Shown one piece after another: positions 6,225 to 62,534 of a DNA stretch of 64,000 nt (position 1 is its first letter; each line of letters starts with the position of its first letter). Below the pieces are notes generated by a model, which was not told the origin of the DNA, did no database searches, and saw only the letters and a program-made list of their open reading frames with translations. The stretch is from a virus: positions 1 to 64,000 of the IMG/VR virus record IMGVR_UViG_3300042562_000747, one strand, 5' to 3'. Both the position numbers and the translations under genes were made by a program.

Positions 6225-7539
6225 TTTTATGTATTTTTAATTCTTTAAATATATCCGAGTACCTATAATTATTGTGTTTTATTTTTTCAATTAAGTATTT
6301 TTCAACTTGGTTGTTCTTACCAATATCAATCATTAGTTGATGATTATGTTTTAAAATATGAAAATTATCTTTTATTATATCATCTATTTCATATATGCTT
6401 AATTTGTTTAATCTATCTATTTCATTTATAATTACATCCATTCTAATATCATTGTCTTCAATTGTGTCGTATGTTTCATCTATTAAAAAATCAAATGTTT
6501 TAAACCCAATTTCTTTTAAATATTTTAACATATGTGGTCTACCAATAACAATAAATGGATGGTATTGAAATATTGGTTTCCATATTTTTTCTGATATAAA
6601 ATCATTATCAATATAAAATGAAGTTTCCGTTACCAAACTAATATAACTTTCTAAAAATAAATTTTCATTTTCATGATAATATCCATTTGTATTTGCAATA
6701 TCCTCTCTATCTGCAATTGATTTAGCCGGCAGTGCTTCAAATTTTTCTTTTAAATCCGAATGTTTTTTATAGAAATTAGATAATTCATTTGTTACTAATG
6801 TTTTATCAAATGATATAATAGAATCGTATTGTATTTTATTAAAAATTTCAGATAATAGTTTTACTCTATGTAAATCTAATCGCCTATTTAAACATAAAAA
6901 CTTAAATGGTTTTTGTAATTTATAATGTGTATTATATAAATCTTTATTAATATGTTTATTGAAAAAATGTTTTGAAGATGCGGTTAAATAAAATGAATAG
7001 TTAATTACCGATGGATATTCTGTTATATTAAATCTTTCTTTAAACGAAAGTAATTTTTGTTCTAAGTTATAATCATTTAAAATTAAAATTACATTTTCAA
7101 ATTTAATCCCCGCGTTTTTAATGCCTAAATACATTCCTTTTAATAACCAATCACCTACCCATCCTTCATGTGAATAATTTATAACAATTTTACCTTTGTT
7201 CTGATTTACTTTTTTTATTATATTAGATGGTATTAAATCAAAGAAATTACAAAAGTCATCCGTTGCTTCTATGTTTAAAGAATACATCAAATGCCCCCAT
7301 GGTTCTATCGGATATACCCAATTTTCAGATTCAATATTATCAGTAATTTCTAATTTAATATCTTTTATACCAAGATTACTAATCCAACTACTATGTTGAT
7401 TTCCAAATTTATTTTCTAATTCGAATGAATCAATTAGTCTATCTGTAACAAATATATGACTTAATATTTCTGGTTTTATACAATTTGGAATTGGTTTATT
7501 AAATTTCCACTTATCGTATAATAAAACAATATTATCCAT
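6208..7539 (-). CDS. Putative glycosyltransferase, GT10-like (paralogue 1 of 3)
   Basis: This 443-aa protein has a C-terminal block shared with two other cassette genes (14193-15464 and 15461-16951): a FLCLNRR basic segment (about residues 213-219), then SLVTETSF, ISEKIWKPI, HPFIVIGRP and a KEIGFKTFD tail. The ET...SEKIW pattern resembles the nucleotide-sugar-binding region of alpha-1,3-fucosyltransferases (GT10), where FENS...TEKLW occurs. The N-terminal half, presumably the acceptor side, differs from the paralogues. It follows the SGNH gene with an 8-base overlap. Transferase assignment is moderate; donor and acceptor are unknown. Confidence 0.65.
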   Translation of the reverse strand: MDNIVLLYDKWKFNKPIPNCIKPEILSHIFVTDRLIDSFELENKFGNQHSSWISNLGIKDIKLEITDNIESENWVYPIEPWGHLMYSLNIEATDDFCNFFDLIPSNIIKKVNQNKGKIVINYSHEGWVGDWLLKGMYLGIKNAGIKFENVILILNDYNLEQKLLSFKERFNITEYPSVINYSFYLTASSKHFFNKHINKDLYNTHYKLQKPFKFLCLNRRLDLHRVKLLSEIFNKIQYDSIISFDKTLVTNELSNFYKKHSDLKEKFEALPAKSIADREDIANTNGYYHENENLFLESYISLVTETSFYIDNDFISEKIWKPIFQYHPFIVIGRPHMLKYLKEIGFKTFDFLIDETYDTIEDNDIRMDVIINEIDRLNKLSIYEIDDIIKDNFHILKHNHQLMIDIGKNNQVEKYLIEKIKHNNYRYSDIFKELKIHKNDNII

Positions 7540-8434
7540 TAATTTCTTTTAAAATATAATCACTAATACTATTTGCAATTATTTTATGACACTCTAATGA
7601 AGCGTGGTCATCAGGTACTTTATTACCATTTATTCTTAAATCAGATGTACTAATCATCATTTGTGGGTCTGATTTCATTAAATCTGCTAATGAATTATAT
7701 TCTATTGCATTATTATACATTTTAATATAAATCTTATTAAAAAATTCATCTTCAATTAAAAATGGTACATATTCATTTTGCCAAGTTAAAATTCTACATT
7801 TTATACCTGCTGCTTCGTATTTTATAAATAATTCTTTAATTAGATTTAAATTTTGTTGTATAAAAAACTTTTCCATATCTTCCCAACTTGTAAAATTATC
7901 AGAATAGAATTTAAATAATTTTTCATATGTGTCAGATTGTATTTTTCCATCAAACATATTAATATTATTTTGATGTAAATTATGTCTATCTCTAACACCC
8001 GCTACATTTAATTCCATTTGCTCATCATTTATATAAACTTGATAGTTCCTAAATGGGTCAGTAAGTTGCAGTATTACATAACCAATTTCATCTGCGGAAT
8101 AATGTTGGTCTGCGAATTTTTTATAATGTTTTTTAGATAATGCGTTTGTATCTGTTTCATTTTCTAAATCTATTATATATTCTAACCATGTAATAGAACC
8201 ATCATCCGAACCACCATTATCTATTTTATTAACTTCCCATGTTCCTAATTTATCTGCAACCAATCTACTAAAACGATTTGCACTCATAAATTTATACATA
8301 GCTTGTGTAATTTTATGTGAATCCGTTGTATTATTTGCTACCGCATTTTTAATATCAATAAATGGTGTATAAAAATATAAACCACTTCCCCAAGTATGAG
8401 AACATCCAGTAAATGCAATTCCTTTATTAAGCAT
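7532..8434 (-). CDS. SGNH/GDSL-like hydrolase (paralogue 1 of 3)
   Basis: This 300-aa protein begins with a block-I motif, FTGCSHTWGSG (residues 8-18), in which the Ser would be the nucleophile; Cys replaces the usual Asp of GDS. NGGSDDGS could supply the block II/III Gly and Asn-like oxyanion residues. DDHASLECHK near the C terminus carries the Asp/His pair typical of block V. SGNH enzymes in sugar clusters commonly act as O-acetyl transferases or esterases. It is closely similar in plan to the gene at 8933-9826, from which it is separated by the small TPP-enzyme gene. An O-acyl modification of the phage glycan is inferred. Confidence 0.7.
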   Translation of the reverse strand: MLNKGIAFTGCSHTWGSGLYFYTPFIDIKNAVANNTTDSHKITQAMYKFMSANRFSRLVADKLGTWEVNKIDNGGSDDGSITWLEYIIDLENETDTNALSKKHYKKFADQHYSADEIGYVILQLTDPFRNYQVYINDEQMELNVAGVRDRHNLHQNNINMFDGKIQSDTYEKLFKFYSDNFTSWEDMEKFFIQQNLNLIKELFIKYEAAGIKCRILTWQNEYVPFLIEDEFFNKIYIKMYNNAIEYNSLADLMKSDPQMMISTSDLRINGNKVPDDHASLECHKIIANSISDYILKEING

Positions 8435-8972
8435 AATATAACTCCGGATATTCTACTAATATATGAATACCACCTTCATTTGTTGCATATTTGTAAGCTA
8501 ATTCAATATCTTCCGGTGATTTTAAATCGTGAAATTCTATATTTTTACATAAAGATTTAAATTCCTCAAAATAATTTCCTCTATGTTGGTGACCTGGATC
8601 AATTGGTTTATCACTCCCTTTACCTAATCTAATAATTAAGTTCGGTTTCCACTTTTCTTGACTCATTATTCCAATTTTATCAACGTGATTTATTAATTGG
8701 TTTGCTGCACAAATAATAAAATCCCAACGAGGATAGAATGTAATAACTCTTTTACCTGCCATTGCCAACCCTAAACTCATTCCCATTTGTGATTCTTCCA
8801 TTACAGGAACTTCAATCATTTTTTCTTTTGGAACAAATCCTAAAGTTGTACTCATAGGATTACCTTGATAAACTATTTGTTGACCAATAAAAACAGAATC
8901 TTCTAATTCTGCTAAATTTTTCATTGCTTCCGTTAGAGCATCTTTGTACGGGGTGTATTCTGGGTTTGCCAT
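8427..8972 (-). CDS. E1-beta/transketolase-type TPP pyrimidine-binding domain protein (minimal)
   Basis: This 181-aa protein matches the N-terminal domain of 2-oxoacid dehydrogenase E1 beta subunits. The start PYKDALTEAMKNLAE corresponds to the usual YREAL...A opening. VPVMEESQMGMSLGLAMAG (about 55-73) holds the conserved cofactor-activating Glu (probably Glu59). FYPRWDF...ANQLINHVDKIG follows as in E1 beta. The C-terminal transketolase_C domain is missing: 181 residues against about 325. The matching alpha half lies 8 kb away at 16951-17586. No E2 or E3 genes are seen, so I infer a non-oxidative acyl or aldehyde transfer on a sugar precursor rather than acyl-CoA formation. Confidence 0.85.
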   Translation of the reverse strand: MANPEYTPYKDALTEAMKNLAELEDSVFIGQQIVYQGNPMSTTLGFVPKEKMIEVPVMEESQMGMSLGLAMAGKRVITFYPRWDFIICAANQLINHVDKIGIMSQEKWKPNLIIRLGKGSDKPIDPGHQHRGNYFEEFKSLCKNIEFHDLKSPEDIELAYKYATNEGGIHILVEYPELYYA

Positions 8973-9826
8973 ATAACTTGTTTTTCTATTTCTTCTATTT
9001 TATTAATAATTGCTTCTGCCTGTATTTTATGTGCCTTCAATGATGTATGACCATTTATTACTTTTTTTCCAATAGTTGTAAAATACGGGTCATCTGAAAT
9101 ACTCATACCTATCGGTCTATCTTTTCTACTTTGTAAATCCCATATTGAACTAAATATATTTCCATTCACATTGTATTCTATAAATCTATCTTCTAAAAAT
9201 GAATTATTCTTAATGTATGGTATTAATTCGTTTTGCCAAGTGTGTATTAAACATTTTTTTACACCCATAGATTCATATTTTCTAAACTTTTCCTCTACCA
9301 TTTTTGCAAATTCATCTAAAAAAACGTGTGTATATTTTTTTATATCACCATCATATATTTCTTCTAAATATTTATCAAATTCACTATTTTTTATAGATTG
9401 TACCGAATTAATATTACATTTTCTTACTACACCGTTATAAGTAAATTCAGTTTCTGCTCTAAACATATCAGTAAGTTGAACTACTACATAATCAAAATCT
9501 TCTAATTCCATTCTAAACATTCTATGTGCTACCGGACTTGAATTTGCTGGTACATAATTTAGTTGCCATTGTGTATTTAATGTATCTAAGAAAATAAAAA
9601 TTTGATTGTTATCACCACCATTACTATCTCTACAATATTCAAATGTTTCAAAATGTGTAGCAACTTGTCTTGCAAATCTTTTTGATTTAATAAATTCTAC
9701 ATGAGCAGGCGTATAATCTTCTCTGTAATGCTGAGTTGCATTCCATTTAATATTAGGGAGGTGAGAGTAATATTGTAATCCCTCACCCCATGTAAAACTA
9801 TCACCTGCAAATAGAATTCCTTTCAT
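8933..9826 (-). CDS. SGNH/GDSL-like hydrolase (paralogue 2 of 3)
   Basis: This 297-aa protein has a canonical block I, FAGDSFTWGEG (residues 6-16, Ser nucleophile). DSNGGDNNQIF holds the Gly/Asn blocks, and NGHTSLKAHK near the C terminus carries the block V His. VQLTDMFRAE and IHTWQNELIPYI are nearly repeated in the paralogue at 7532-8434 (LQLTDPFRNY, LTWQNEYVPFL), showing a recent common origin. The start overlaps the stop of the upstream epimerase gene (TAATG), while its 3' end overlaps the E1-beta gene by 40 bases. Esterase or O-acyltransferase activity is inferred from the family. Confidence 0.75.
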   Translation of the reverse strand: MKGILFAGDSFTWGEGLQYYSHLPNIKWNATQHYREDYTPAHVEFIKSKRFARQVATHFETFEYCRDSNGGDNNQIFIFLDTLNTQWQLNYVPANSSPVAHRMFRMELEDFDYVVVQLTDMFRAETEFTYNGVVRKCNINSVQSIKNSEFDKYLEEIYDGDIKKYTHVFLDEFAKMVEEKFRKYESMGVKKCLIHTWQNELIPYIKNNSFLEDRFIEYNVNGNIFSSIWDLQSRKDRPIGMSISDDPYFTTIGKKVINGHTSLKAHKIQAEAIINKIEEIEKQVIWQTQNTPRTKML

Positions 9827-10803
9827 TAGTTTTGAAATTCTGATTTATTTTCTAAATACCATTCATACGCATTAGCTAATCCATCTTCTAACGATGTACT
9901 TGCTTGCCATCCTAAGTTATCAAAAATCTTAAATGAATCAATCTTACGAGTTGGAATCATTGATGGTTTACCTTTAATAAATTCAGTTGGTGCATCAAAG
10001 TTTGCAATTCTTTTCATTATTTCTAATACTTCTAATACGGAATACACTCTATTAGAACCTACATTATAAACTTGATAATCTTCTTTTTCTTTTTCCATTA
10101 CTATTTGCAATGCTTCTACGAAATCTTCGATATATAATAAATCTCTCAATTCACTACCATCACCCCATACAGGAATTGGATTCATTTGGTCTGCTACTTT
10201 TCTAATTGTTGCCGGAGTAACATGACACTTATTGAAATCGTATTTATCATGTGGACCAAATAAATTAGCTGGTCTGATAATTGTACATTTCATTTTAACC
10301 GGTAAATACTTTGCGTATAATTCACATTGAACTTCTGCATATCTTTTCATCCAACCCACAGGAAAGTAAACAGGATATGGTTCATCAAATAGGAAATCAG
10401 TCTCTACTACGGGCTTATCTCCTTTTGGTGGATAAACTGTATTAGATGATAAGAAGATGTAATGTTGAACCTTATTTCTCCAACTGGCATCAATTAAGAA
10501 ATTGTTCATTGCTACGTTTGGTGTAACATGTGCCAATGGGTCAACTACGGTGTCTACTGCGTTTGATGTACTTGCTGCTGCGTGATATACTACATCAATT
10601 CCTTTGGTTGCATCTAAACACCCTTCGTATGTTTTTAAATCAAAATGAACATACTCTACACCATCAATTGGTGTTCGTACTCCTCTTTTGTGTAAATTAA
10701 CTCTAATGTTTGTGTAACCTTCTTTGTGTAATCGGTTTGTTAAATTTTGACCTACTAAGCCAGAACCACCTGTTATCAGGATTTTTGAATCTTTGTTTAT
10801 CAT
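9826..10803 (-). CDS. NAD-dependent epimerase/reductase (extended SDR, GDP-fucose-synthase-like)
   Basis: This 325-aa protein has the Rossmann motif ITGGSGLVGQNL (about residues 9-20), HAAAST, a catalytic-Ser segment LSSNTVYPP, RPANLFGPHDKYD and WGDGSELRDLLYIEDF. The last resembles the WGxG(s/t)xxRDFxYV(D/E)D region of sugar epimerases and GDP-L-fucose synthases. At the YxxxK position the sequence reads YFPVGWMKRYAE, so Val rather than Tyr stands four residues before the Lys. Either catalysis differs or the Tyr is supplied from a shifted position. The gene lies 1 base after the oxygenase gene. Role: nucleotide-sugar conversion, substrate unknown. Confidence 0.85.
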   Translation of the reverse strand: MINKDSKILITGGSGLVGQNLTNRLHKEGYTNIRVNLHKRGVRTPIDGVEYVHFDLKTYEGCLDATKGIDVVYHAAASTSNAVDTVVDPLAHVTPNVAMNNFLIDASWRNKVQHYIFLSSNTVYPPKGDKPVVETDFLFDEPYPVYFPVGWMKRYAEVQCELYAKYLPVKMKCTIIRPANLFGPHDKYDFNKCHVTPATIRKVADQMNPIPVWGDGSELRDLLYIEDFVEALQIVMEKEKEDYQVYNVGSNRVYSVLEVLEIMKRIANFDAPTEFIKGKPSMIPTRKIDSFKIFDNLGWQASTSLEDGLANAYEWYLENKSEFQN

Positions 10804-10804
10804 A

Positions 10805-11461
10805 TTATTTTTTTGAGTTCATTATAAAACTTATTAATGCTTTTCTTTCAAAATTTGGATTTGTTATTGGGTTTACCTCATGTTCTAAATTTGCATTGGT
10901 AAAATCTAATACAACAAAGTTACCAAATTCCGGTGTAATTTCCAATTTATTTCCATCAAAATCTGTAATTATTAGTTCTCCCCCATCTCCTTTTTTCCAA
11001 TCTTTATTCAAATATAGTAATACTACACATATTCTAAATTTATCATCATCTTCACCATCTTTATGATTTTTAATAAAACAATCTTTATTATATAAAGTTA
11101 AATTAAAAGATGGGTTTCCAAATACATAATGATTTCTAGGATATAATTCTTGTAATTTTGAATAACAATATTTAGAAATTAATTCACAATCTGCATGTCC
11201 ATTGTATAAATGTTCAAACCAAATTTGTGCTAAGTCATTGTGTTTTTCAATAACCGATTGTTTATATTTGTTTTGACTTTCAAAATCATTAGATGGAACG
11301 ATTCTTACATTGTGTACTTCTTTTAACGAATATACAATTTGGTATTCAAATTCTTTATAATCTATAATTTTAGTTAAATATTGATTAAGTAATAATTCGT
11401 ATGATTTACCAAAAAATTCTAAACCTAAACCAGCATAATATCCTTTACCTGTATATAACAT
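10805..11461 (-). CDS. 2-oxoglutarate/Fe(II)-dependent oxygenase (prolyl-4-hydroxylase-like)
   Basis: This 218-aa protein has a C-terminal double-stranded beta-helix signature. Iron ligands are NHKDGED (His-x-Asp) and LEHEVNPI (distal His), and the 2-oxoglutarate-binding Arg lies in FERKALISF. Between them GDGGELIITDFDG and FGNFVVLDFTNAN are typical of P4H-type oxygenases. The N-terminal half begins with a hydrophobic-aromatic stretch (MLYTGKGYYAGLGLEFFG). It is one base away from a second oxygenase (11462-12184), which shares the core but little else. Target could be a sugar, protein side chain or small molecule; the sequence does not decide. Confidence 0.85.
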   Translation of the reverse strand: MLYTGKGYYAGLGLEFFGKSYELLLNQYLTKIIDYKEFEYQIVYSLKEVHNVRIVPSNDFESQNKYKQSVIEKHNDLAQIWFEHLYNGHADCELISKYCYSKLQELYPRNHYVFGNPSFNLTLYNKDCFIKNHKDGEDDDKFRICVVLLYLNKDWKKGDGGELIITDFDGNKLEITPEFGNFVVLDFTNANLEHEVNPITNPNFERKALISFIMNSKK

Positions 11462-12184
11462 TTATTTATTTTTTAGTACAACGAAATTTAAATATGCAAA
11501 CCTATTAAACTCATTCATTACTTTATGTACCGAATGTACTGGCATACTTTTTGTAAAATCTAATACACCATAGTTTCCTAATATTGGATATACAATATCA
11601 ATATGTTCTTCTTTATTTTTTAATACCAATTCACCACCATCACCTACATTATATTCACTTAATGGAGTTAAATATATTAAACAGGCACATAGCCTATCAT
11701 TTACATATCCATCATTATGCATTGTAATAAAATCACTATCAGTATACCAAGTTATTTGACCTACACTTTGTATATCGGTTGCAGTAATATTTAATTCATA
11801 ATGTTTATTTATAATACCCGCACATACTTTGTCCATTATAGGATAAAATACTTTATTAAAATAATCGTTTCCCAATCCAATTCTTTCTGCTAATTCACCA
11901 CACCTTTGATGCACCATTTTATTTTGTTGGTGAGCGTGGTATCGTATATCATTACTTCCATCAACAAACTCTTTTATTTCTTTAAAAGTTTCTTCATCAT
12001 AATATCCACTATCGGTGTGCTTTGGATGCGGATTCATAGAAGAATACAAATAAGTAACTAAATCTTTATTATCTTTATATTGTATTAATATATTATAAAA
12101 AGATTTAATTGTTTCAATTTCACTTTCATTTAAAAAATCCCATATTGTTCCTATTGCGTATTCGGTATTCTGAATCTGTAACAT
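11462..12184 (-). CDS. 2-oxoglutarate/Fe(II)-dependent oxygenase
   Basis: This 240-aa protein has iron-binding MHNDGYVND (His-x-Asp), a distal His in PVHSVHKV, and the co-substrate Arg in FNRFAYLNF. VGDGGELVL and YGVLDFTKS match the oxygenase at 10805-11461 (GDGGELII, VVLDFTNA), so the two probably arose by duplication and diverged. The start overlaps the stop of the upstream coiled-coil gene (TAATG). Hydroxylation of a cassette product or virion protein is possible; no direct evidence of substrate. Confidence 0.85.
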   Translation of the reverse strand: MLQIQNTEYAIGTIWDFLNESEIETIKSFYNILIQYKDNKDLVTYLYSSMNPHPKHTDSGYYDEETFKEIKEFVDGSNDIRYHAHQQNKMVHQRCGELAERIGLGNDYFNKVFYPIMDKVCAGIINKHYELNITATDIQSVGQITWYTDSDFITMHNDGYVNDRLCACLIYLTPLSEYNVGDGGELVLKNKEEHIDIVYPILGNYGVLDFTKSMPVHSVHKVMNEFNRFAYLNFVVLKNK

Positions 12185-12582
12185 TATATTAGGTTTTTTG
12201 GTTTTTTATTTAATAAATTTGATTCCTCTATTGCCATTTCTTCTGCCAAATCAAATCTTATTTTATTTAATCTTGTTCTATCAATATCTAATTGTTTTTC
12301 AATTGAAATAAATTCGTTTTTTAATCTTTCAATTTCTAAATTTTTAGCATCTTTTATTTCTTTATTTAATTTTGCTAATTCCTTTCCCACATTTGCTCTT
12401 GCTTCATTTATCCTATTTCTTTCTATTGCTATATTTTCTTTTTCATGTTCAATATCTTTCCATTCATAGTATATTTTACTACGCTCCAACATAATCTTTT
12501 CTCTTTCATCTGCGATTATTTGCTTTTGCTTTTCTAAATATTCCATTTCTTTATTTATTTCTTTTTCAGATATCACTCGCAT
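12184..12582 (-). CDS. Coiled-coil protein (short paralogue)
   Basis: This 132-aa protein is almost entirely predicted alpha-helical coiled coil, rich in Glu, Lys, Ile and Arg. Its first 50 residues (MRVISEKEINKEMEYLEKQK...ERSKIYYEW) align with those of the next gene upstream (MKVISQTELDKEQLYLEKQK...ERSRLYYEW), and its end (DRTRLNKIRFDLAEEMAIEE) repeats a motif found there several times. It looks like a shortened duplicate. No enzyme motif is seen. A scaffold or oligomerisation partner for cassette enzymes is a guess. Confidence 0.75.
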   Translation of the reverse strand: MRVISEKEINKEMEYLEKQKQIIADEREKIMLERSKIYYEWKDIEHEKENIAIERNRINEARANVGKELAKLNKEIKDAKNLEIERLKNEFISIEKQLDIDRTRLNKIRFDLAEEMAIEESNLLNKKPKNLI

Positions 12583-12597
12583 ACTATAATTATTAAC

Positions 12598-13281
12598 TTA
12601 TATAATTTGTTTTGATTTTTTATAAATATTTAATTTAGCAGTTCCTATTGCAATCTCCTCAGCTATTTCGGCTCTAATTTTATCTAATCGATTTCTATCC
12701 TCAGTTAGTTGTGATTCCAATTCATTTTCCTTTTGTTTTCTAATAAAAATTATATGATTTTCTAATTCCAGTTCCAATTCTGTTTTTATTATAGAATGTG
12801 CAGTATTAATATCATTGTATATTTCATTTCGAATTGTATCTAATCGTTTTCTATCTTTTACTAATTGTTTTTCTAATTCTGATTCTTGTTCTTTTATAAT
12901 TTTTTTATGTTTATCTGTAATTTCTTTTTCTAATTTTTTTGTTATCGTTTCAAATCGTTTCCTGTCATTTGCTAATTGTATGTCAAATTCTTTTTCTTGT
13001 TTTTTTCTTTGTTCACCAATTTCATTTGCCCAAAAATCTTCTTTTGCTTTTTTATTTAATTCATGTCTTTTATTCATTTCATCAATTAAAATAACATTAG
13101 ATTCATTTAGATTTTCTCTTATTTTTTTATATTCTTCATCCAATTCCTGCAAATCTCGCCATTCATAGTATAACCTACTACGTTCAATCATTAATCTCTC
13201 ACGTTCTTCTGAAATTATTTGCTTTTGTTTTTCTAAATATAATTGTTCTTTATCTAGTTCTGTTTGAGATATAACTTTCAT
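12598..13281 (-). CDS. Coiled-coil protein with internal repeats (long paralogue)
   Basis: This 227-aa helical protein contains three or four copies of a 30-40 residue unit of the form ELExQLxxDRxRLDxIRxEI: LANDRKRFETI, LVKDRKRLDTIRNEI and LTEDRNRLDKIRAEI. The N-terminal block is shared with the 132-aa neighbour, supporting the chosen start at 13281, although it overlaps the epimerase gene by 32 bases. The repeats explain the length difference between the two paralogues. No known family; structural or tethering function inferred. Confidence 0.75.
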   Translation of the reverse strand: MKVISQTELDKEQLYLEKQKQIISEERERLMIERSRLYYEWRDLQELDEEYKKIRENLNESNVILIDEMNKRHELNKKAKEDFWANEIGEQRKKQEKEFDIQLANDRKRFETITKKLEKEITDKHKKIIKEQESELEKQLVKDRKRLDTIRNEIYNDINTAHSIIKTELELELENHIIFIRKQKENELESQLTEDRNRLDKIRAEIAEEIAIGTAKLNIYKKSKQII

Positions 13282-14188
13282 ATGTCAATTTTAAAGCTTC
13301 ATTGAATCCCAATACTGGCAATAATCCTATTTCTTTTTGTAGTGTTGTGTCCATTTGTCTACGAAGGTCACCATTTGGTTTTGTAGTGTCCCATTTTATA
13401 TCTATATTTTTACCACTAATTTTAATAAGTTGTTCAATCATTGATTTGATTGTAATTTCTTCACCTGCACCAAAGTTAATTGTAGTATGTATTTGTTTTT
13501 CATATAAAGATAAAATTGCATTTGCTACATCACCTGCATAAACAAAATCTCTAATTGGTGTTCCATCCCCCCATGCTTCAATTTCATTTTCTGCTTCAAA
13601 TACTTTTTTACATTGAGTTGCAATTACTGTTCCTGTTCCATCAAAGTTATCATACTCACCAAAAATGTTTGCTGGTCTTATGATTGCCCAATTTGTATAA
13701 TTGTATTGAACTTTGTATGCTTCTAATAAAACCTCACCCATTCTCTTACTCCAACTTGGAAACCAATCTGCGTCTGATGGTAATGTTTTCCATACACTAT
13801 CTTCTACAAATGTTTCTGCGGGTGCATATACACCAACTGAACTAACAAATACTAACCAAATATTATTTTTTGAACATTGATTAATAATTTCAGTATTAAT
13901 TTTAAATGATGGATATAAAAAATCCACCGGACTTTCCTTTGCTCTAATAGGAGAACCTTTAACACCAAAACAATTGAATACTGCATCAGGAGTTTCATAA
14001 AAGAAAAGATTTTTAACATTATCTTCTATTGTTAAATCCATTTCATAAAATGTAAATTTTTCAGATATTGGTAAATTTGGTGATTGTCTCATATCAACAC
14101 CAATTACTTCATATCCTGCTACTAAACATTTTTTAACTAAATGTATTCCAACTAATCCACTACAACCTGTTACTAAAACTTTTTTCAT
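13250..14188 (-). CDS. NAD-dependent epimerase/dehydratase (extended SDR)
   Basis: This 312-aa protein has the Rossmann motif VTGCSGLVGIHLVKK (about residues 5-19), Asp36 of VIGVDMR as an NAD-selecting acidic residue, FVSSVGVYAP with the catalytic-Ser region, RPANIFGEYDNFD, and WGDGTPIRDFVYAGDV. The YxxxK site reads DWFPSWSKRMGE: the Lys is present but Pro stands where Tyr is expected, echoing the change seen in the 9826-10803 epimerase. The product probably works on a nucleotide sugar. The upstream leader is A-rich without a Shine-Dalgarno sequence. Confidence 0.85.
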   Translation of the reverse strand: MKKVLVTGCSGLVGIHLVKKCLVAGYEVIGVDMRQSPNLPISEKFTFYEMDLTIEDNVKNLFFYETPDAVFNCFGVKGSPIRAKESPVDFLYPSFKINTEIINQCSKNNIWLVFVSSVGVYAPAETFVEDSVWKTLPSDADWFPSWSKRMGEVLLEAYKVQYNYTNWAIIRPANIFGEYDNFDGTGTVIATQCKKVFEAENEIEAWGDGTPIRDFVYAGDVANAILSLYEKQIHTTINFGAGEEITIKSMIEQLIKISGKNIDIKWDTTKPNGDLRRQMDTTLQKEIGLLPVLGFNEALKLTYESYISNRTR

Positions 14189-14192
14189 ATTT

Positions 14193-15464
14193 TTATTTTA
14201 TTAATTTTGAATATACGTTATATAATTCCTCATCTTTTTGAAATGATAATAATAGTTTTTGATTTGCTTCTATTTTATCCATATCAAACGGTGGTAATTC
14301 ACCATTATCATCTATATACTTTAATAGTTTTCTAATTTCCTCAAATGTTTTTACTAATCGTAACCAAGGAAATTCTTCATTATTTAAGTAATCATAATTT
14401 ATAAATGGTGGAACATAGAATCCCATATCTTCTAATATTGTATTAGTATATCTTGGACCAATTACTATAAATGGATGACAATTTGCAATAGGTCTAATTA
14501 CTTTTTCTGAAATCATTATATCTCTTTCAAAAAATTTAGTTTCAGTAACAATAGATAATAAAGATTCTGCATATAAAAATGAATCGTTGTTCCAATTATG
14601 TAAAAGATTTTCTACATATCCAGGATCTGTTTTTTTAATATCTACCGAAATTTCACCTGGCTTTGGATTAGCTATATAATCATTTCTATATTCTTGTAAT
14701 TCGTTTATTCCCATTGTATTATATCCCAATACATGTTCATCTGGAAATTCTAAAAATGAAATATAATTATTATCTATTATATTTTCTTTTTTACAAAAAT
14801 TATAAAACCAAAATCTATGGTCTCTTTTTGCATTTCTATTAAACGATAATATTGTTTTTAATTTAGGAGTAGTTTCGTATTGTTCTCGTTTACATACACT
14901 AAAAATACTATCATTCATTTTAAAATTATTATCCAAATCATATGTTAAGAATGGAAAGAAAATATGATTACCTTTTGCAAAATCATTTATATTATAACAG
15001 GGTGTTATTGTGTAAATGTTTTCAGAATGTTTGGATGTATTAATCCAATTATAGAATTTTTTATAATGACCTGATTCGTGAAAACTGATAAATAATATTT
15101 TAATACCCTTTTCTAAAATAGTAGTATAATGTGGTAAATATTCTTCCAAATCTTCCATATGTACTTTTGGAGTAACTAAATAAAAATTTTCATCTGCCCC
15201 ATCTAATATTGGTTGGTCAGAAAATACTATTTTTAAATCTTTATGTTCAAATGTTTTTGCATATTTTTTAGTTCCCCAATGACTTCTTAAAAATATTTCA
15301 TTATAACTAGATTGTATTTCACTATCCCTAAGAATATCTAAAATACCAATATAATTGTTTGTAACAGTTCTATCTTCTGGTATTTTGTAATTAAATACAC
15401 CATTCGGTAACGGGAGATAATCATCACCCGTCCAATTTTCCATATAAAAATTTATCAATTTCAT
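14193..15464 (-). CDS. Putative glycosyltransferase, GT10-like (paralogue 2 of 3)
   Basis: This 423-aa protein shares with the other two paralogues the C-terminal block SIVTETKFFERD, ISEKVIRPIANCHPFIVIGP, and LEDMGFYVPPF. Upstream is a basic FNRNAKRDHRFW segment, matched by FNRSVFKDHRFW in the neighbouring paralogue. The N-terminal opening (MKLINFYMENWTG) is unrelated. The start overlaps the next gene by 4 bases (ATGA), so this and 15461-16951 are probably translated in series. The donor sugar cannot be deduced. Confidence 0.65.
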   Translation of the reverse strand: MKLINFYMENWTGDDYLPLPNGVFNYKIPEDRTVTNNYIGILDILRDSEIQSSYNEIFLRSHWGTKKYAKTFEHKDLKIVFSDQPILDGADENFYLVTPKVHMEDLEEYLPHYTTILEKGIKILFISFHESGHYKKFYNWINTSKHSENIYTITPCYNINDFAKGNHIFFPFLTYDLDNNFKMNDSIFSVCKREQYETTPKLKTILSFNRNAKRDHRFWFYNFCKKENIIDNNYISFLEFPDEHVLGYNTMGINELQEYRNDYIANPKPGEISVDIKKTDPGYVENLLHNWNNDSFLYAESLLSIVTETKFFERDIMISEKVIRPIANCHPFIVIGPRYTNTILEDMGFYVPPFINYDYLNNEEFPWLRLVKTFEEIRKLLKYIDDNGELPPFDMDKIEANQKLLLSFQKDEELYNVYSKLIK

Positions 15465-16951
15465 TTGCTAAAAATAGATGAATATAATTTTTTTACCGAT
15501 TGTTCACCCGAATAAGTTTTACATAGATTTGAATTATGTATAACTTCTTCTTTTGAATCCATAAATATCTTGTGTAATTTTTTCTTATCGTTTAGTTCCG
15601 TAGTTAGTTTAACCACTGCTTTCATTCTATCACCATGATCAAAAATCTTATCATAACTTTCATCAAAATATTTATCAAATGTTTTGAATCCTTTTTCTTT
15701 TAACATTTCTAAATACAATGGGCCGGCTAATGCTATAAATGGATGAAAATATCGTAATGCCTTTACTCCTTTTTCAGAAACTTGACATGCGGTGAATGAT
15801 GACTCAGTTAATAGTGTCATATATGTTCTTAAAAACGAAGGGTCAAATGATGGATTTACCCAATCTATCCAACCATAGTGAACTCTACGTCCATTTGCAT
15901 AATATGTACTATCTTCAAATGTATCAATGTTATCAATTTTAACAACACCAATATCTTTTATTTTTTGCATCCATCCCATATTATCATTAAATTCTTTTAA
16001 TTTAGTGAATGCCGGAAACCCTCTATAACCATCTGTTCCCCAATCTATTTCTCTATCATATGGAAATATCATAGAATATAAACAATCTTTTAATACATCA
16101 TTTTTTTCTAATTGTGATAAATACCAAAATCTATGGTCTTTAAATACTGAACGATTAAACATTAAAAAATTCTTTTCTCTCTCACCTTCAAAATTCAATA
16201 CATCACCATCATACGGATTATTTGAATATGCACTACACGCCGTTGAAAATAAATAATCAACAAAATAACAATTCATTTTTATTGTAATGTTATTTTTCAT
16301 ACAATACAATTCATGTTGTAAATTTACATTTGAATCTGCATTTGAGTAATGAATATTATCTGGACTTATACCAAATTCTTTACATGAGTTATATAATTTT
16401 TCAAAAAAAGATTCGTAGTGAACACCACCTTCGTGAAATGTAGAAATTATTAATTTTAAATCACCTAATTGAATTGCCCTTAATATTTCAGGATTTAAAT
16501 TTAATAAATGTTTACCGGATGCTTTGTATTCAACAATATCTTTAACTGTTATAGATGGTGATTGAAATAAAAAATCTTCGTTTCCAAATAAATTAATTGG
16601 ATAATAATTTCGTTCCCCACTTTTTATTCTATTGAATGGTAATACATTTAATTCATATGCATTATTTTCATATTCAAATGTATATGTATTTTCATCTAAT
16701 TTAGTAAAACTTTCTAAAATATTTTCTCTAATAGTTCTTGTATAAAAAATATTAAAAAGAATATCTTTATGTTCTGATGATAGATTGATTACGTTATGAT
16801 GGTCAGTAAATCCTCTACCAAAAAATTCTGATGTAGATATACCTCGTAATTCTATTTGTTGTAATGTACTATGATAAGCGGCTTCGGTTAACCCGTTTGG
16901 AAATATAACACCATCTTTTTCATATTCGTATATAAAGTTGATTTTTTCCAT
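15461..16951 (-). CDS. Putative glycosyltransferase, GT10-like (paralogue 3 of 3)
   Basis: This 496-aa protein uses the ATG at 16951, which overlaps the TAA of the upstream E1-alpha gene (TAATG); an in-frame ATG five codons earlier is also possible. It has HEGGVHYESFF in the middle, FNRSVFKDHRFWYL, then TLLTESSF, VSEKGVKALRYFHPFIALAGP and KEKGFKTFDKYFDESYD, as in the 6208-7539 paralogue (KEIGFKTFD...DETYD). An earlier HEGWVGDWL in that paralogue matches HEGGVHYES here. It is the longest of the three, with an added N-terminal domain of about 150 residues. Confidence 0.65.
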   Translation of the reverse strand: MEKINFIYEYEKDGVIFPNGLTEAAYHSTLQQIELRGISTSEFFGRGFTDHHNVINLSSEHKDILFNIFYTRTIRENILESFTKLDENTYTFEYENNAYELNVLPFNRIKSGERNYYPINLFGNEDFLFQSPSITVKDIVEYKASGKHLLNLNPEILRAIQLGDLKLIISTFHEGGVHYESFFEKLYNSCKEFGISPDNIHYSNADSNVNLQHELYCMKNNITIKMNCYFVDYLFSTACSAYSNNPYDGDVLNFEGEREKNFLMFNRSVFKDHRFWYLSQLEKNDVLKDCLYSMIFPYDREIDWGTDGYRGFPAFTKLKEFNDNMGWMQKIKDIGVVKIDNIDTFEDSTYYANGRRVHYGWIDWVNPSFDPSFLRTYMTLLTESSFTACQVSEKGVKALRYFHPFIALAGPLYLEMLKEKGFKTFDKYFDESYDKIFDHGDRMKAVVKLTTELNDKKKLHKIFMDSKEEVIHNSNLCKTYSGEQSVKKLYSSIFSK

Positions 16952-17586
16952 TAAAATATTACCCATTTACCTGTACCATAATGTGGCCATTGTTTTTCGT
17001 ATGAATACCAAATAACTTTTTCCGATGGTACTTCTCTTTTTTTACCATTCCAAGTTGCTTCGGTTGGTGTGTTTGTTGATACTCCATTATCTTCAACTAC
17101 AAATATAATTGGTAAATCATATCTAACTGCGTATTTGTGCATTTCATAAAACCCACCGGTCTCAAATGCCATATCACCTATGAAACAAAATACTTTATCA
17201 TCTTTACCATCTCTTTTATTTGCCATTGCTACACCCGTTGCTATCGGTATGATTGCACCAACAATTGCACTTGCATAGAATCTTTGTTCTTCACTAACGA
17301 TAGTAATACTTCTACCATCTAATATTTCGTTTTCTAACCAAACAGGACACACACCTTTGATTAGTGCGTGGTAATGTGAACGCCAGGTTGAGAATACCCA
17401 ATCTGTATCTTTTATTCTTTTACCAATTTCAATTAATTGTTCTTCGTTACCACCACTTAAATGCACCGGTCCTTTTATTTTACCTGCTTCCCAATGGTCT
17501 GCAATCATTCTTTCGTATGCAATTAATTCATCCTTTGTAAATCTTGCATCTGATACAATAGGGTATTTTTCTAAATTTTCTATCAT
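16951..17586 (-). CDS. E1-alpha-type TPP-binding domain protein (minimal)
   Basis: This 211-aa protein matches 2-oxoacid dehydrogenase E1 alpha subunits. HLSGGNEEQLIEIG (about 42-55) parallels the usual HLSxGQEA segment, and VFSTWRSHYHALIKG (about 64-78) holds the phosphate-contacting His region. GDMAFETGGFYE opens the TPP motif (GD at 137-138, Asn167 in VVEDNG, spacing as in GDGx(25-30)N, with Met replacing the third Gly). It ends soon after, about 120 residues shorter than typical E1 alpha. I chose the ATG at 17586 because it forms an ATGA overlap with rfbC; an earlier in-frame ATG at 17625 would overlap by 43 bases. Confidence 0.85.
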   Translation of the reverse strand: MIENLEKYPIVSDARFTKDELIAYERMIADHWEAGKIKGPVHLSGGNEEQLIEIGKRIKDTDWVFSTWRSHYHALIKGVCPVWLENEILDGRSITIVSEEQRFYASAIVGAIIPIATGVAMANKRDGKDDKVFCFIGDMAFETGGFYEMHKYAVRYDLPIIFVVEDNGVSTNTPTEATWNGKKREVPSEKVIWYSYEKQWPHYGTGKWVIF

Positions 17587-18119
17587 CTGTCTCTTTTTTG
17601 TAATATAGGGTTTGTTGTTGGCCATTCCATTTGATATTCCGGGTCATTCCATTTAACTACACCTTGCTCATCTGCATCCACATAACCATCTTTATAGAAT
17701 AAGTTATAGTGAAACATACAATCAGTTAATGCATAGTGTCCGTTTGCAAAACCAGGTGGAACTAATACTTGATTTCTATCTTTCTCAGTTATCATAAAAG
17801 ATTCCCACTCTCCAAAGGTAGGACTATTTTTTCGCATATCCAAAACAATTAGATAAATATCTCCAACTGCTGCTTGTACTAATTTCCAAGTTTTATTATC
17901 GTAATGTAATCCTCTTAATACACCTTTATATGATTTTGAGAATCTACCATGCACTTCGTTTCCTTCACCTATTTTTTGCATAACAGGATGTTGTCCAGAA
18001 TGAAAGGTTGTAAATATTTCGCCTCTATATTCTCTATAAATTGATGGAGTATAGGTCGGTACTTCATAACCAAATTTTTTTGATGGAGTTATTTTAAAAT
18101 CATCCCACTTATTACTCAT
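17583..18119 (-). CDS. rfbC: dTDP-4-dehydrorhamnose 3,5-epimerase-like protein (RmlC)
   Basis: This 178-aa protein has the normal RmlC length of about 180. VLRGLHYD holds the catalytic His. KLVQAAVGDIYLIVLDMR, SPTFGEWESF, VPPGFANGHYAL and the final VVKWNDPEY follow the family order (KLV..GE..DV.VDLR, SPTfG.w, P.GFAHGF, .I.WNDP). It epimerises C3 and C5 of a 4-keto-6-deoxy nucleotide sugar. No RmlA, RmlB or RmlD-type genes are clearly recognised beside it; the 4-keto substrate may come from the host or from one of the SDR enzymes. The stop overlaps the E1-alpha start. Confidence 0.88.
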   Translation of the reverse strand: MSNKWDDFKITPSKKFGYEVPTYTPSIYREYRGEIFTTFHSGQHPVMQKIGEGNEVHGRFSKSYKGVLRGLHYDNKTWKLVQAAVGDIYLIVLDMRKNSPTFGEWESFMITEKDRNQVLVPPGFANGHYALTDCMFHYNLFYKDGYVDADEQGVVKWNDPEYQMEWPTTNPILQKRDR

Positions 18120-18125
18120 ATAACT

Positions 18126-19676
18126 TTATTTTTCTACATTTAAATATTGAATAATTTCATTTTCCAATTCATCGGTAACAACTCCTTCTTCTAACGCTCT
18201 TTTTTCATAATCTTTTTTATATAAATTATTTTCATCACCCCTTACTTTTTTGATTTCAATTTCATAATCCATTTTGGTTGCTCTAACTCTTTCAAACCAA
18301 TCTTCTAATTCAGGAAAAGTTTCTACAAAGTTTTTATTACGTCTAACATCATATTGTTGATAGAACGATTTGAAATCTCTTTGTCTACTTCTTAAATCTG
18401 ATGCAAATCTATGTCCTTGTGATACTTCTCTTAAATATTCACATAGTCTATATATTTGATTTGCTAACCCCCATAGGTCAGTGTCATTGTAATATGAAGG
18501 TTTACTCTTAATAAAGTTTTCAACCCAATATTGGATATGTTCTGCTCTTTCTAAACGTATTTCTTCGGGTAATGTACTAACTGATTGAAATGATGGGAAA
18601 CGTAAAATATTAAGAGTCATTAATACTGATGTTTTATCAATATATTTTTCTCTTAACTTATTCATTTCATCTAAGAAATCTGTTATACTAAAAATACATA
18701 ATGCATTAATTGTCATCATTACATTAAATGTTCTTAAATTACCATCTCTAATCATTCTCTCTGCATTTTCTCGCCATACTTCCCACTTCAAACCATCTCT
18801 AATATATTCAGCATGCTTACCAACACTTTCGTTTGATGTATAAATGTCAATTGATTTAAAGTTATGAGTTGCTTTAATTAATTTATCTACCAACTCTTTC
18901 TTTTGACCTAAGTTTGAGTTAACTGCGAAGTGAACATCACAATTAGGATTGTTTTCCCACCAATCCATTAACTTCCAAAAATCTTTACTCATTGTAGGTT
19001 CACCACCGGTCACTCTTAATTCTCTTAATGAATGTTGTAACTCACCTTCCCACCATTTCCAAAATGCTTCAACGTATGGATTATCTTTATTATCTTTACC
19101 ATATATCATTGCATCATCTCCAGCGTGGTGAAATGCACCTGCACCATCGGTATTAAGATTTTGATAAGCACCATTTGTTTTAATATCCATTTGCCAAGTT
19201 GTACTAAACGATGCATTACAATATGAACAAGCAAAGTTACAATTAGCATCAAAACTAATTTCTAATGTTTTTAAATCAACATCTTTGGTATATCCTAATT
19301 CATTTTTTGCTTCTATTAATTCTTCATCCGTATAGATTACTGATTTGTAAACTCTATCACTTACTTTATCCGGTCCTAAATCTTCAATCTTCCAACAATA
19401 CTCACATTCATTCGGTCTAATACCTTCCATCATTTCTTTACGAACTAATTTCTTATAATGTGTATTATGTAATGCTTTATATGATTTAGATAATTCTTCT
19501 AATGGTATTTTATGTGCCGGTGGATGGTGACATGATGTGGTTTGTCCCATATTTAACCATATAGTAGCATTGTACCACTTTGCTCCACAAAAAGAATTAG
19601 AGAGTGAGTTTATTGCCCTATCTCTATATTCTTGAAATGTTTCATCACCTTTTTTTGCATATACAAATTCTGCCAT
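18126..19676 (-). CDS. Radical SAM protein with extra N-terminal Cys cluster (paralogue 1 of 2)
   Basis: This 516-aa protein has the radical SAM motif CNFACSYC (CX3CX2C) at about residues 148-155, followed by RVTGGEPTMSKDFW (GGE motif, SAM binding) at about 221-234. Before the core lie Cys/His-rich segments: FCGAKW (about 29-34), TSCHHPPAHK (about 48-57) and ECEYCWKIED (about 91-100). Together these could bind an auxiliary Fe-S cluster. The layout resembles proteins annotated as twitch-domain radical SAM proteins in phages, but here the extra Cys residues precede the core. The reaction on a sugar, peptide or fibre residue is unknown. Confidence 0.88.
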   Translation of the reverse strand: MAEFVYAKKGDETFQEYRDRAINSLSNSFCGAKWYNATIWLNMGQTTSCHHPPAHKIPLEELSKSYKALHNTHYKKLVRKEMMEGIRPNECEYCWKIEDLGPDKVSDRVYKSVIYTDEELIEAKNELGYTKDVDLKTLEISFDANCNFACSYCNASFSTTWQMDIKTNGAYQNLNTDGAGAFHHAGDDAMIYGKDNKDNPYVEAFWKWWEGELQHSLRELRVTGGEPTMSKDFWKLMDWWENNPNCDVHFAVNSNLGQKKELVDKLIKATHNFKSIDIYTSNESVGKHAEYIRDGLKWEVWRENAERMIRDGNLRTFNVMMTINALCIFSITDFLDEMNKLREKYIDKTSVLMTLNILRFPSFQSVSTLPEEIRLERAEHIQYWVENFIKSKPSYYNDTDLWGLANQIYRLCEYLREVSQGHRFASDLRSRQRDFKSFYQQYDVRRNKNFVETFPELEDWFERVRATKMDYEIEIKKVRGDENNLYKKDYEKRALEEGVVTDELENEIIQYLNVEK

Positions 19677-19677
19677 A

Positions 19678-20646
19678 TTAAAATGTTTGTGCGTATCCTA
19701 ACGGAAATCCATTTCTAAATTCAGATGCCATTCTAGGAATCAATACCTGATAGGTTTTCATTAATTCTATAATACCATCATCTAATGTGTATTTTGGTTT
19801 CCAACCGGTTGCTTCTATTTTTGCATTAGATACAATATAATCTCTTTTATCCGGGTCTTCGTAGTAATCATTATATGATATTGCAAAGTCTGGAATATAT
19901 TTTTGAATAGTTTCTAATAATTCTTGTTTAGTTAAATTTGCGTTACTTAATCCAACATTATAAACATTATGTCTCATTTTATCATAATTATTTAATGCCC
20001 ATAAGAATACATTTGCCACATCTTGAATATGAATAAAGTTTCTCTTAAAATGTTTTTCAAATACGGTTATGTATTTATCTGTCATTGCTTTGTATACAAA
20101 TTCATTAACTAATAAATCAGTTCTCATTCTTGGTGATGTACCAAACACAGTTGCTAATCTAAAAATTATTGCTGAACTACATTCTAATAGTAATTTTTCT
20201 GCTGCACATTTACTTTCACCATAAACTGAAATAGGATTTAAAGGTGATTCTTCGGTACATTCTGTTTGTCCTTCACCGATACCATATCCACTATTTGTAT
20301 TTGGATATAATATAATTTGTTCATCAGTAATTGTATCTAATATAGTTTCTATTTGAGTAAAGTTTACTTCCCATGCTAACTTAGGGTCTTTAGCACAAGC
20401 AGGAAAACCTACAATTGCGGCTAATGGAATAATAACATCATGTATTCCTACTTCATGTCTTAATAATCTTTCATTACGAACATCACCATATATAAAATTA
20501 TATTTTTTATTTGTTGTAAATTGTAATGGAGAAATTTGATTGAATGATAAGTTATCTATGACAGTAACACTATGTCCTGCGTTTAACATCTTTTCGGTAA
20601 TTACTGAACCTAAATAACCTGCACCACCTGTAATTAATATTTTCAT
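19678..20646 (-). CDS. NAD-dependent nucleotide-sugar epimerase (extended SDR)
   Basis: This 322-aa protein has ITGGAGYLGSVITEKM (about residues 4-19), VIDNLSF with the NAD-selecting Asp, YGDVRN, PLAAIVG, and a standard catalytic site: NTNSGYG for the Ser/Thr position and VYGESKCAAEK with a proper YxxxK. HIQDVANVF and VYNVG complete the UDP-glucose 4-epimerase/dehydratase pattern. Unlike the two other SDR genes in the cassette it keeps the catalytic Tyr. The start overlaps the LamG gene stop (TAATG). Confidence 0.88.
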   Translation of the reverse strand: MKILITGGAGYLGSVITEKMLNAGHSVTVIDNLSFNQISPLQFTTNKKYNFIYGDVRNERLLRHEVGIHDVIIPLAAIVGFPACAKDPKLAWEVNFTQIETILDTITDEQIILYPNTNSGYGIGEGQTECTEESPLNPISVYGESKCAAEKLLLECSSAIIFRLATVFGTSPRMRTDLLVNEFVYKAMTDKYITVFEKHFKRNFIHIQDVANVFLWALNNYDKMRHNVYNVGLSNANLTKQELLETIQKYIPDFAISYNDYYEDPDKRDYIVSNAKIEATGWKPKYTLDDGIIELMKTYQVLIPRMASEFRNGFPLGYAQTF

Positions 20647-21356
20647 TATATTAGAGTTTGTTTTATATTTGTAATATCTGCCGTTTCTAATGAGTTTCCT
20701 GCTAATAATTTATTTAATTTAATTTGAATTGTTTTATTCATAAATTCTTCAATATATGCAAAATTACCATTACCACTTTTATCCCACACTTTAAATCTAT
20801 TTACTTTTGTAAAATCTAAATTAGTAACTATACCTTCATTGTTTGAAACTATAAATTCAGATATTATACCATTAAAATAATATCTTTCATTAGTATCTTT
20901 TAAAAATGGATTCATTACACCAATCCATAGTGGTACATGTGCATAATCGCAAGTTTTATATTTACATTTAACCATTCGTTTTTCACCATTTACTGAAACC
21001 AAAAACATACTGATTCCTTCTACATTTTGAATTTGATAAATAACTTTATATTCTTTATCATATTCAAAATCAAATTCTTCAATATGCATATCATCCGAAA
21101 AATTACCACTTTCAGGATTTGCAGTAAATAATACACATTTTAATTTATTATTATCAATATAAACCCCACTATTTACTATTCCAGGTTTTGCAAAAATATA
21201 TTGTTTTTTTCCATTATTTTGTGCAATAAATGTACAATTTATAATTACAGAATCGTTAAACACCGTTCCCAATAAATTAGGTCGTTTGGATGTATTGTGT
21301 TTAGATTCGTTCCATACACTGCAACAAAAAGTATCTTTAAATTCAAATAGTTCCAT
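20646..21356 (-). CDS. LamG/concanavalin-like beta-sandwich protein
   Basis: This 236-aa protein is mostly beta, with LamG-type features: IINCTFIAQNNGKKQYIFAK (probe strand pairs), YDKEYKVIYQI, MFLVSVNGEKRM, PLWIGVMN, RYYFNGIISEFIVSN, and WDKSGNGN near the end. These match the LamG domain inserted in the three GT7-like proteins (YYFKGDIAKVMMWD, LSDNGNHG). A carbohydrate- or acceptor-binding accessory protein is inferred. It is tightly coupled to the flanking radical SAM and epimerase genes by TAATG overlaps on both sides. Confidence 0.7.
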   Translation of the reverse strand: MELFEFKDTFCCSVWNESKHNTSKRPNLLGTVFNDSVIINCTFIAQNNGKKQYIFAKPGIVNSGVYIDNNKLKCVLFTANPESGNFSDDMHIEEFDFEYDKEYKVIYQIQNVEGISMFLVSVNGEKRMVKCKYKTCDYAHVPLWIGVMNPFLKDTNERYYFNGIISEFIVSNNEGIVTNLDFTKVNRFKVWDKSGNGNFAYIEEFMNKTIQIKLNKLLAGNSLETADITNIKQTLI

Positions 21357-25598: not shown

Positions 25599-25819
25599 TA
25601 AGCTTCTCTTTCGGACTCTTTATCTGGTCTTGTAGATGTTCCAACTGCTTTGGTTTTAGCAATATTGTAAAACTCATTCAAATACCATTCTAATCTTGTA
25701 GACCATCCTTTGGTATCTAAATCGTATAACCAATCACTAATGTCTTGTGTAGAGTGTGCAATACTTTCTAATGCTTTTACACCTCTTTCTTCGGTTGTTA
25801 ATTCTTTTTTCTCTGCCAT
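25598..25819 (-). CDS. Small protein of unknown function (73 aa)
   Basis: This 73-aa acidic protein is predicted mostly helical (ERGVKALESIAHSTQDISDW, TRLEWYLNEFYNIAKTKAVG) with a charged tail ending ESEREA. It lies between a GT7-like gene (TAATG-type overlap at 25598) and the 101-aa small gene, so it is almost certainly translated. The leader is A-rich. No recognised domain. Confidence 0.65.
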   Translation of the reverse strand: MAEKKELTTEERGVKALESIAHSTQDISDWLYDLDTKGWSTRLEWYLNEFYNIAKTKAVGTSTRPDKESEREA

Positions 25820-25831
25820 TTTATTTGTTTT

Positions 25832-27615: not shown

Positions 27616-27650
27616 ATCTAAATGTAACAAATTTTATTTATAAAACCAAA

Positions 27651-62471: not shown

Positions 62472-62534
62472 ATGTAATTGTTTATAACTCTAATATACAT
62501 TAAATAATTATACTTTCCAAATAATAATACGAAT

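Follow-up and report, generated by a model that had tools for sequence, protein, structure and literature searches.

A paired two-domain E1-like enzyme in phage heptose cassettes as a candidate carboligase for GDP-4-keto-heptose

Branching of nucleotide-bound ketosugars by E1-type enzymes is so far known from actinobacterial antibiotics, through the alphaKADH2 pairs AviB1/AviB2 (avilamycin), Pau11/Pau12, identical to Plm8/Plm9 (paulomycin), EvdU5/EvdS3 and KbDH-alpha/beta (kibdelomycin), and branching in surface glycans is known from YerE. AviB1/B2, Pau11/12 and Plm8/9 add, or are proposed to add, the C2 unit of pyruvate to C4 of a ketosugar (PMC4425429, PMC4802897, PMC12247030); disruption of pau11 confirmed the paulomycin cluster (PMC4425429), Plm8/9 accept varied deoxysugars (PMC4802897), and in vitro KbDH-alpha/beta join pyruvate to sugar analogues that are cyclic ketones (PMC12247030). 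Here we describe a much smaller alpha/beta pair in a heptose cassette of the IMG/VR virus record IMGVR_UViG_3300042562_000747, which is 83,317 bases long and classed as viral by IMG/VR; the window is the stretch of 64,000 nucleotides from position 1 of that record. Like the alphaKADH2 pairs, the two proteins are E1-type alpha and beta chains with no role for an E2, encoded in a nucleotide-sugar cluster together with a maker of a 4-ketosugar. They differ in size (211 + 181 amino acids (aa) against 325 aa for Pau11 and 345 aa for Pau12) and in setting, since the alphaKADH2 pairs serve deoxyhexoses and pentoses in actinobacterial antibiotic clusters and the short pair is encoded alongside GDP-heptose enzymes, both in phages and in clusters for the cell surface.

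The initial annotation had recognised an E1-beta-like and an E1-alpha-like protein with a thiamine pyrophosphate (TPP) motif, each below its family norm, and both open reading frames (ORFs) were recovered (Table 1). In Pfam searches beta matched PF02779 (Transket_pyr; E = 1.7e-6, above the gathering cut-off) and alpha matched PF00676 (E1_dh; 5.3e-20), and against NCBIfam the values were 2.3e-10 for beta with pyruvate dehydrogenase (PDH) E1-beta and 2.3e-27 for alpha with TIGR03182 (PDH_E1_alph_y). At the sequence level the E1-family match of both subunits is far above chance. The NCBIfam E1 models span 315-341 and 327 positions, so that both proteins are far shorter than the norm, and the pair scored under the equivalog/subfamily cut-offs of these models (95.7 vs 393.85 bits; 39.9 vs 321). 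A possible alpha start lies 13 codons upstream at 17625; because many relatives have a stop codon in that stretch and the ATG at 17586 overlaps the stop codon of the RmlC-type gene, 211 aa is the correct length, and the 211- and 181-aa lengths are near-constant across about 100 loci. When the profile of the pair was compared with the PDB, PDH E1 ranked first (7.5e-21 for E1-alpha and about 3e-15 for the beta subunit of E1/2-oxoacid dehydrogenases), 1-deoxy-D-xylulose-5-phosphate synthase (DXPS) second (about 1e-9) and transketolase last (merely 4e-5 to 6e-4).

Alignments of 15 diverse members revealed that beta E59 and H130 and alpha H42, R69, G137 and D138 are invariant, and that alpha N167 is nearly so (at least 90%, with Asp in S-SM2). 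G137, D138 and N167 belong to the Mg-TPP motif GDM...EDNG, and in beta E59 aligns with the Glu that is catalytic in E1-beta, and H130 with the active-site His of that subunit. The catalytic residues are conserved across phage, bacterial and archaeal members. The alpha subunit also retains the PDH-type HLxxG motif, and the short alphas have in common a C-terminal Y.Y....PH motif in which P201-H202 is invariant. The pair resembles PDH E1 (1ni4, 1w85) in fold, catalytic Glu and TPP/Mg residues, but PDH E1 works with E2/E3 and has an alpha C-terminal third and a beta C-terminal domain, both of which the phage pair lacks. Alignment to six full-length E1 alphas showed the C-terminal third to be missing from all short alphas; this block includes a loop with a His that, according to the title of PDB entry 1ols, takes part when the lipoyl group of E2 is reductively acylated. 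The C-terminal domain of E1-beta is missing from beta, and Transketolase_C (PF02780) was not found above the cut-off in any of 16 long phage records (the record of the window and 15 others). Nor was E2 (PF00198) detected in these 16 records, some of which may be fragments, which agrees with the earlier proposal of an E1 without E2. Because the alpha C-terminal third, Transketolase_C and E2 were not found, the enzyme, as read from its sequence, has lost the parts that face E2 while those that face TPP are retained. We consider it very probable that the pair is a working two-subunit TPP enzyme.

The proposal that the two proteins are partners held up across relatives. A single PHROG profile of 405 positions (phrog_34187) covers both, with alpha at positions 5-198 (3.7e-52) and beta at positions 237-401 (2.7e-23), and alpha and beta therefore correspond to the two parts of a single protein family that is already catalogued; the pair is a real phage family that had been seen before with no function assigned. 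Every beta contig of sufficient length also carries alpha, the alpha-less contigs being fragments that end near beta, so that pairing is consistent and homologues are not solitary. The catalytic Glu of beta is invariant. A search of other phage cassettes yielded 71 distinct phage loci that carry both subunits. In the window, alpha and beta are separated by about 8.0 kb with nine ORFs inside; across relatives the two genes overlap or lie a few bases, about 1 kb or up to about 8 kb apart, their order and strand can switch, and they are fused into one chain in the cultured cyanophages S-SM2 and P-TIM68 and in a Prochlorococcus and a Nanoarchaeota genome. Since spacing varies in this way, from adjacent or fused upwards, the separation pointed out by the initial annotation is real, but reflects gene flux in the cassette and has no meaning of its own. 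The S-SM2 (SSM2_198) and P-TIM68 proteins match both halves of phrog_34187 and belong to the same family as the window pair; they differ in being single fused chains, 30-44% identical, with Zn-alcohol dehydrogenase and HldE-like/HAD genes as neighbours.

The neighbouring genes point to a 4-ketone. Among the 71 phage loci, 65 encode a maker of GDP-4-keto-heptose, which is Cj1427-like in 58 and heptose 4,6-dehydratase-like in 7, with no locus having both; an RmlC-type 4-keto-heptose epimerase is likewise present in 65. In the 6 loci with neither maker, the available stretch mostly stops just upstream of alpha. The dehydrogenase of the window was matched to 6vo6, which, together with 6vo8, we take to be Cj1427, the nearest solved structures of its RmlC-type protein are the Campylobacter GDP-4-keto-heptose 3- and 3,5-epimerases, and the 4,6-dehydratase-like protein of one locus, L017, matched 7us5 at 6.3e-110. 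The smallest module, seen in 10 loci (e.g. L010), consists of dehydrogenase, RmlC, alpha and beta, with neither of the two short-chain dehydrogenase/reductase (SDR) proteins of the window nearby. As the two routes to the 4-ketone swap while alpha, beta and RmlC stay, the 4-ketone appears to be what matters, and the likely acceptor can be named as GDP-4-keto-heptose. The dehydrogenase/dehydratase, epimerase and reductase-like genes match the Campylobacter jejuni GDP-heptose pathway (Cj1427, Cj1430, Cj1428; 7us5), where Cj1427 oxidises C4 of GDP-D-glycero-D-manno-heptose with 2-oxoglutarate (PMC10680097); the C. jejuni enzyme set as listed in the abstract of this review has no TPP enzyme and no branching step. 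L017 and five further loci (L019, L022, L024, L028 and L029) form a distinct phage group: alpha and beta flank a gene for GDP-heptose 4,6-dehydratase, and MannoseP_isomer/NTP-transferase and HAD-like proteins are encoded nearby. Family membership, conserved residues, pairing, domain loss, absence of E2 from the searched records and linkage to 4-keto-heptose makers are all direct observations.

For the pair we infer TPP binding, donor, acceptor, product and target glycan as follows. Alpha (PP domain) and beta (PYR domain) would form one TPP-dependent enzyme of the E1 (alphaKADH2) type, reduced to its two catalytic domains. Pyruvate, the likely donor, would be decarboxylated to a hydroxyethylidene-TPP intermediate, and the acetyl unit would pass to the C4 ketone of GDP-4-keto-heptose instead of a lipoyl E2. 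The ketone would be supplied by the Cj1427-type C4-dehydrogenase here and by GDP-heptose 4,6-dehydratase in other phages, while the RmlC-type epimerase would set the stereochemistry at C3/C5. The predicted product is a nine-carbon GDP-heptose with a 4-C-acetyl branch on a tertiary alcohol; one of the two SDRs might convert the acetyl to a hydroxyethyl group, and the branched heptose would then be transferred to a surface glycan. By analogy with the described pairs, we give a probability of roughly 60% to the reading that the phage pair is a stripped-down alphaKADH2-type carboligase adding a pyruvate-derived C2 unit to C4 of GDP-4-keto-heptose. The initial annotation had suggested sugar branching as performed by YerE. 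The branching itself fits, in that the neighbouring genes provide the electrophile for such a reaction, a nucleotide sugar with a 4-keto group, and YerE too is proposed to place a pyruvate-derived C2 unit onto a nucleotide-sugar 4-ketone, in its case for lipopolysaccharide (yersiniose A). However, YerE belongs to the decarboxylase superfamily and is a TPP-dependent flavoprotein made of one chain (PMC12247030, PMC4753412), and the phage enzyme has two chains, E1_dh and Transket_pyr, so that the E1-type alphaKADH2 pairs are the right comparison.

Separate alphas and betas were aligned jointly, together with several rows in which the two are fused, by nature or by read-through. In one relative (L014), alpha and beta are adjacent and in the same frame with TAA codons between them; reading TAA as Gly gives one chain with a 7-residue linker, which AlphaFold2 modelled with a pLDDT of 91.4 and a pTM of 0.88. 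Both domains together superposed on DXPS (8a45) with Z 21.1 over 348 residues at 3.0 Å, and singly beta superposed on E1-beta with Z 23.3 and alpha on E1-alpha with Z 18.9. DXPS builds its TPP site inside a single chain. For the L014 pair a confident PP:PYR interface is thus predicted, which is the arrangement that the initial annotation had anticipated for a TPP site. The model of the natural Prochlorococcus fusion showed a transketolase-like intrachain arrangement (about 350 residues, 3.3-4.3 Å, Z about 20).

The pair had been described as phage-borne, and it is indeed found in phage loci, but it is not specific to phages, since the same short family is present in bacteria and archaea: members were found in SAR11, SAR116, Acidimicrobiales, Omnitrophota, Desulfobacterales, Nanoarchaeota and Prochlorococcus genomes. 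Its occurrence is sporadic, in 3 of 52 genomes of one SAR11 family (one of the three being of the full-length type) and in 2 of 398 genomes of the phylum of the SAR116 member. A search of a plasmid collection with the SAR11 alpha returned no short member at E 1e-22, and literature searches found no relevant publication linking a phage or SAR11 E1 to heptose. A small tree placed the short alphas in a single clade, apart from six full-length E1 alphas (support 1.000); those of phages grouped with those of SAR11 (0.979). Clade 1 (the window, SAR11 and kin) has GDP-heptose genes as neighbours, while clade 2 (S-SM2, archaea, Desulfobacterales and a megaphage) has radical SAM/SPASM or Zn-dehydrogenase neighbours. 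Sugar clusters can also contain E1-like pairs of full length: one in a SAR11 cluster (L151 4917-6948) with an HldE-like protein and no adjoining E2, and others in Azospirillum (L154 and L158) with DegT, HAD-IIIA and glycosyltransferases, the L158 pair (13935-15948) lying on a plasmid with no adjoining E2. The L151 and L158 pairs may be full-size relatives of the short one.

Several observations weigh against a carboligase acting on GDP-4-keto-heptose. Most phages carry two C4-reductase-like SDRs, which would compete for the 4-ketone, and clade 2 stands next to radical SAM or Zn-dehydrogenase genes, in several members also next to an HldE-like kinase/nucleotidyltransferase gene, instead of Cj1427. 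In cellular clusters the pair lies beside GHMP heptose kinase, nucleotidyltransferase/HAD and sometimes SIS isomerase genes, and the GHMP kinase, a frequent neighbour and an early-pathway gene, would be equally compatible with an earlier step. Details of the pocket may differ, because some of the TPP-side loop region of E1-alpha is missing from the short alpha. In the models, the predicted alpha-beta interface depends on the construct, because the Prochlorococcus fusion folded in the transketolase-like rather than the DXPS-like manner; an alpha2beta2 core would bring alpha and beta into contact in two different ways, and the two arrangements may represent these. To our knowledge, no member of the short family has a known activity, TPP binding or product.

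Among the alternatives, the one that survives best retains carbon-carbon ligation on a nucleotide ketosugar but changes the donor (glycolaldehyde/hydroxyacetyl or a longer acyl) or the site (C3 rather than C4). Split transketolases have been proposed to add hydroxyacetyl, ErwE favours longer oxoacids, and known branching takes place at C3 or C4 (PMC12247030). Yet alpha is nearest to a pyruvate-type E1 model (TIGR03182) with the HLxxG motif retained, and the cassette enzymes yield a 4-ketone and not a 3-ketone, and we regard this alternative as unlikely.

Slightly less likely is a role in feeding the heptose pathway with a ketose phosphate, such as sedoheptulose-7-phosphate, for which the pair would act as a minimal transketolase or as a ligase that uses hydroxypyruvate. 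The cellular neighbours listed above, the position of clade 2 next to HldE-like genes, the label "transketolase central region" on the S-SM2 and P-TIM68 proteins and the superposition of the natural fusion model on transketolase all fit such a role. However, the profile of the pair favours PDH E1 by many orders, and PF00456 (Transketolase_N) had no match to alpha at E 0.001. The pair is kept in the 16 long phage records, of which none has a SIS isomerase (Pfam SIS_2), 1 has a GHMP kinase and 1-2 have an NTP-transferase, and an activation-gene homologue lies near the pair in just 15 of 115 phage loci. Moreover, in 7 of 12 cellular genomes a transketolase is strongly matched at another site, and a SAR11 surface-sugar cluster (L127) already has a separate split transketolase (7250-8996), next to a short-chain dehydrogenase and 1-2 kb upstream of the pair. 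As split transketolases are proposed to branch the miharamycin sugar (PMC12247030), L127 may hold two branching enzymes in one cluster. Three S-SM2 proteins (SSM2_207, 210, 211) that carry the GenBank labels "phosphoheptose isomerase" or "nucleotidyltransferase" had been considered as an isomerase beside the pair and were rejected; the argument for sedoheptulose-7-phosphate supply from these labels was dropped because Pfam gives HAD-type phosphatases and a cupin, and the labels in this region (L116, 22980-25287) are likely misannotations. The result of the SIS_2 search does not depend on these labels.

A DXPS-like ligase, joining pyruvate and an aldose phosphate to a 1-deoxyketose phosphate, is very unlikely: the whole-model superposition and weak sequence matches to DXPS concern the shared PP/PYR core, where PF13292 matched a 65-residue PP stretch only, but the full DXPS architecture is missing, with no C-terminal domain, and the substrates of the phage neighbours are nucleotide sugars rather than sugar phosphates. 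Least probable of all is that the pair is a relic without catalysis, or an altered E1 that joins the host PDH complex, a reading that the large deletions relative to E1 would allow and that is opposed by catalytic residues kept in phages, bacteria and archaea, by the missing E2-facing parts and E2, and by continued linkage to sugar enzymes.

The rest of the cassette contains sugar-modifying and accessory genes (Table 1), all those named below being on the minus strand. The 423- and 501-aa proteins between alpha and the second SDR are probably glycosyltransferases, although this is a guess. GDS-like openings in proteins with no Pfam family occur at 7532-8434 (GCSHTWGSGL), 8933-9826 (GDSFTWGEGL) and 29232-30020 (GDSFSYY); copies recur near beta in most related phages, and these proteins are possibly SGNH-type esterases acting on the glycan. 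Two radical SAM proteins (18126-19676, 516 aa; 21356-22747, 463 aa) have a His/Cys-rich N-terminal stretch, and 22747-27630 encodes three related proteins, the first of which combines Glyco_transf_7N/7C (galactosyltransferase-type) and Laminin_G_3 in one chain according to a Pfam search of that protein. Two adjacent, similar coiled-coil proteins (12184-13281; 132 and 227 aa) are gained and lost among relatives. A full carbamoyltransferase (59180-60895; PF02543 + PF16861), which L010 likewise encodes close to the pair, may act on the same glycan. A phage peptide deformylase stands beside an Fe-S cluster biosynthesis protein (PF01521) at 61854-62867.

Table 1. Positions of the alpha and beta genes and of cassette genes in the window
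Feature	Position	Strand	Length or match	Remark
beta, E1-beta-like subunit	8427..8972	-	181 aa	PYR domain only
GDS-motif protein (GDSFTWGEGL)	8933..9826	-	no Pfam family	adjoins beta
SDR like GDP-fucose synthase / GDP-heptose C4-reductases	9826..10803	-		candidate ketoreductase or epimerase
Two 2-oxoglutarate-Fe(II) oxygenase-like proteins	10805..12184	-		variable accessory genes of the cassette
Second SDR, GDP-fucose synthase / heptose C4-reductase kind	13250..14188	-		candidate ketoreductase or epimerase
Two large proteins	14193..16966	-	423 and 501 aa; no Pfam match	between alpha and SDR
alpha, E1-alpha-like subunit	16951..17586	-	211 aa	PP domain only
RmlC-type epimerase	17583..18119	-		overlaps alpha start
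Cj1427-type C4-dehydrogenase of GDP-D-glycero-D-manno-heptose (SDR)	19678..20646	-	PDB 6vo6, E 3.9e-115	

Taken more broadly, chances are about even that an E2-free two-domain E1, found in phages, in SAR11 and in further clusters for surface glycans, uses pyruvate and GDP-4-keto-heptose to make C4-branched, nine-carbon GDP-heptoses, and that it represents a smaller, previously unrecognised form of alphaKADH2 that is also viral. A 2025 review states that no structure of any ketone-accepting alphaKADH2 is available and that viral orthologues might hold surprises (PMC12247030), and an enzymatic preparation of the GDP-4-keto-heptose acceptor, GDP-D-glycero-4-keto-lyxo-heptose, with Cj1427 and 2-oxoglutarate is published (PMC10680097). 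If the proposal is true, the branching chemistry would extend to viruses and marine bacteria, a branched sugar of a kind not listed for heptose pathways would be predicted, and the pair would constitute a very small natural ketone-accepting carboligase.

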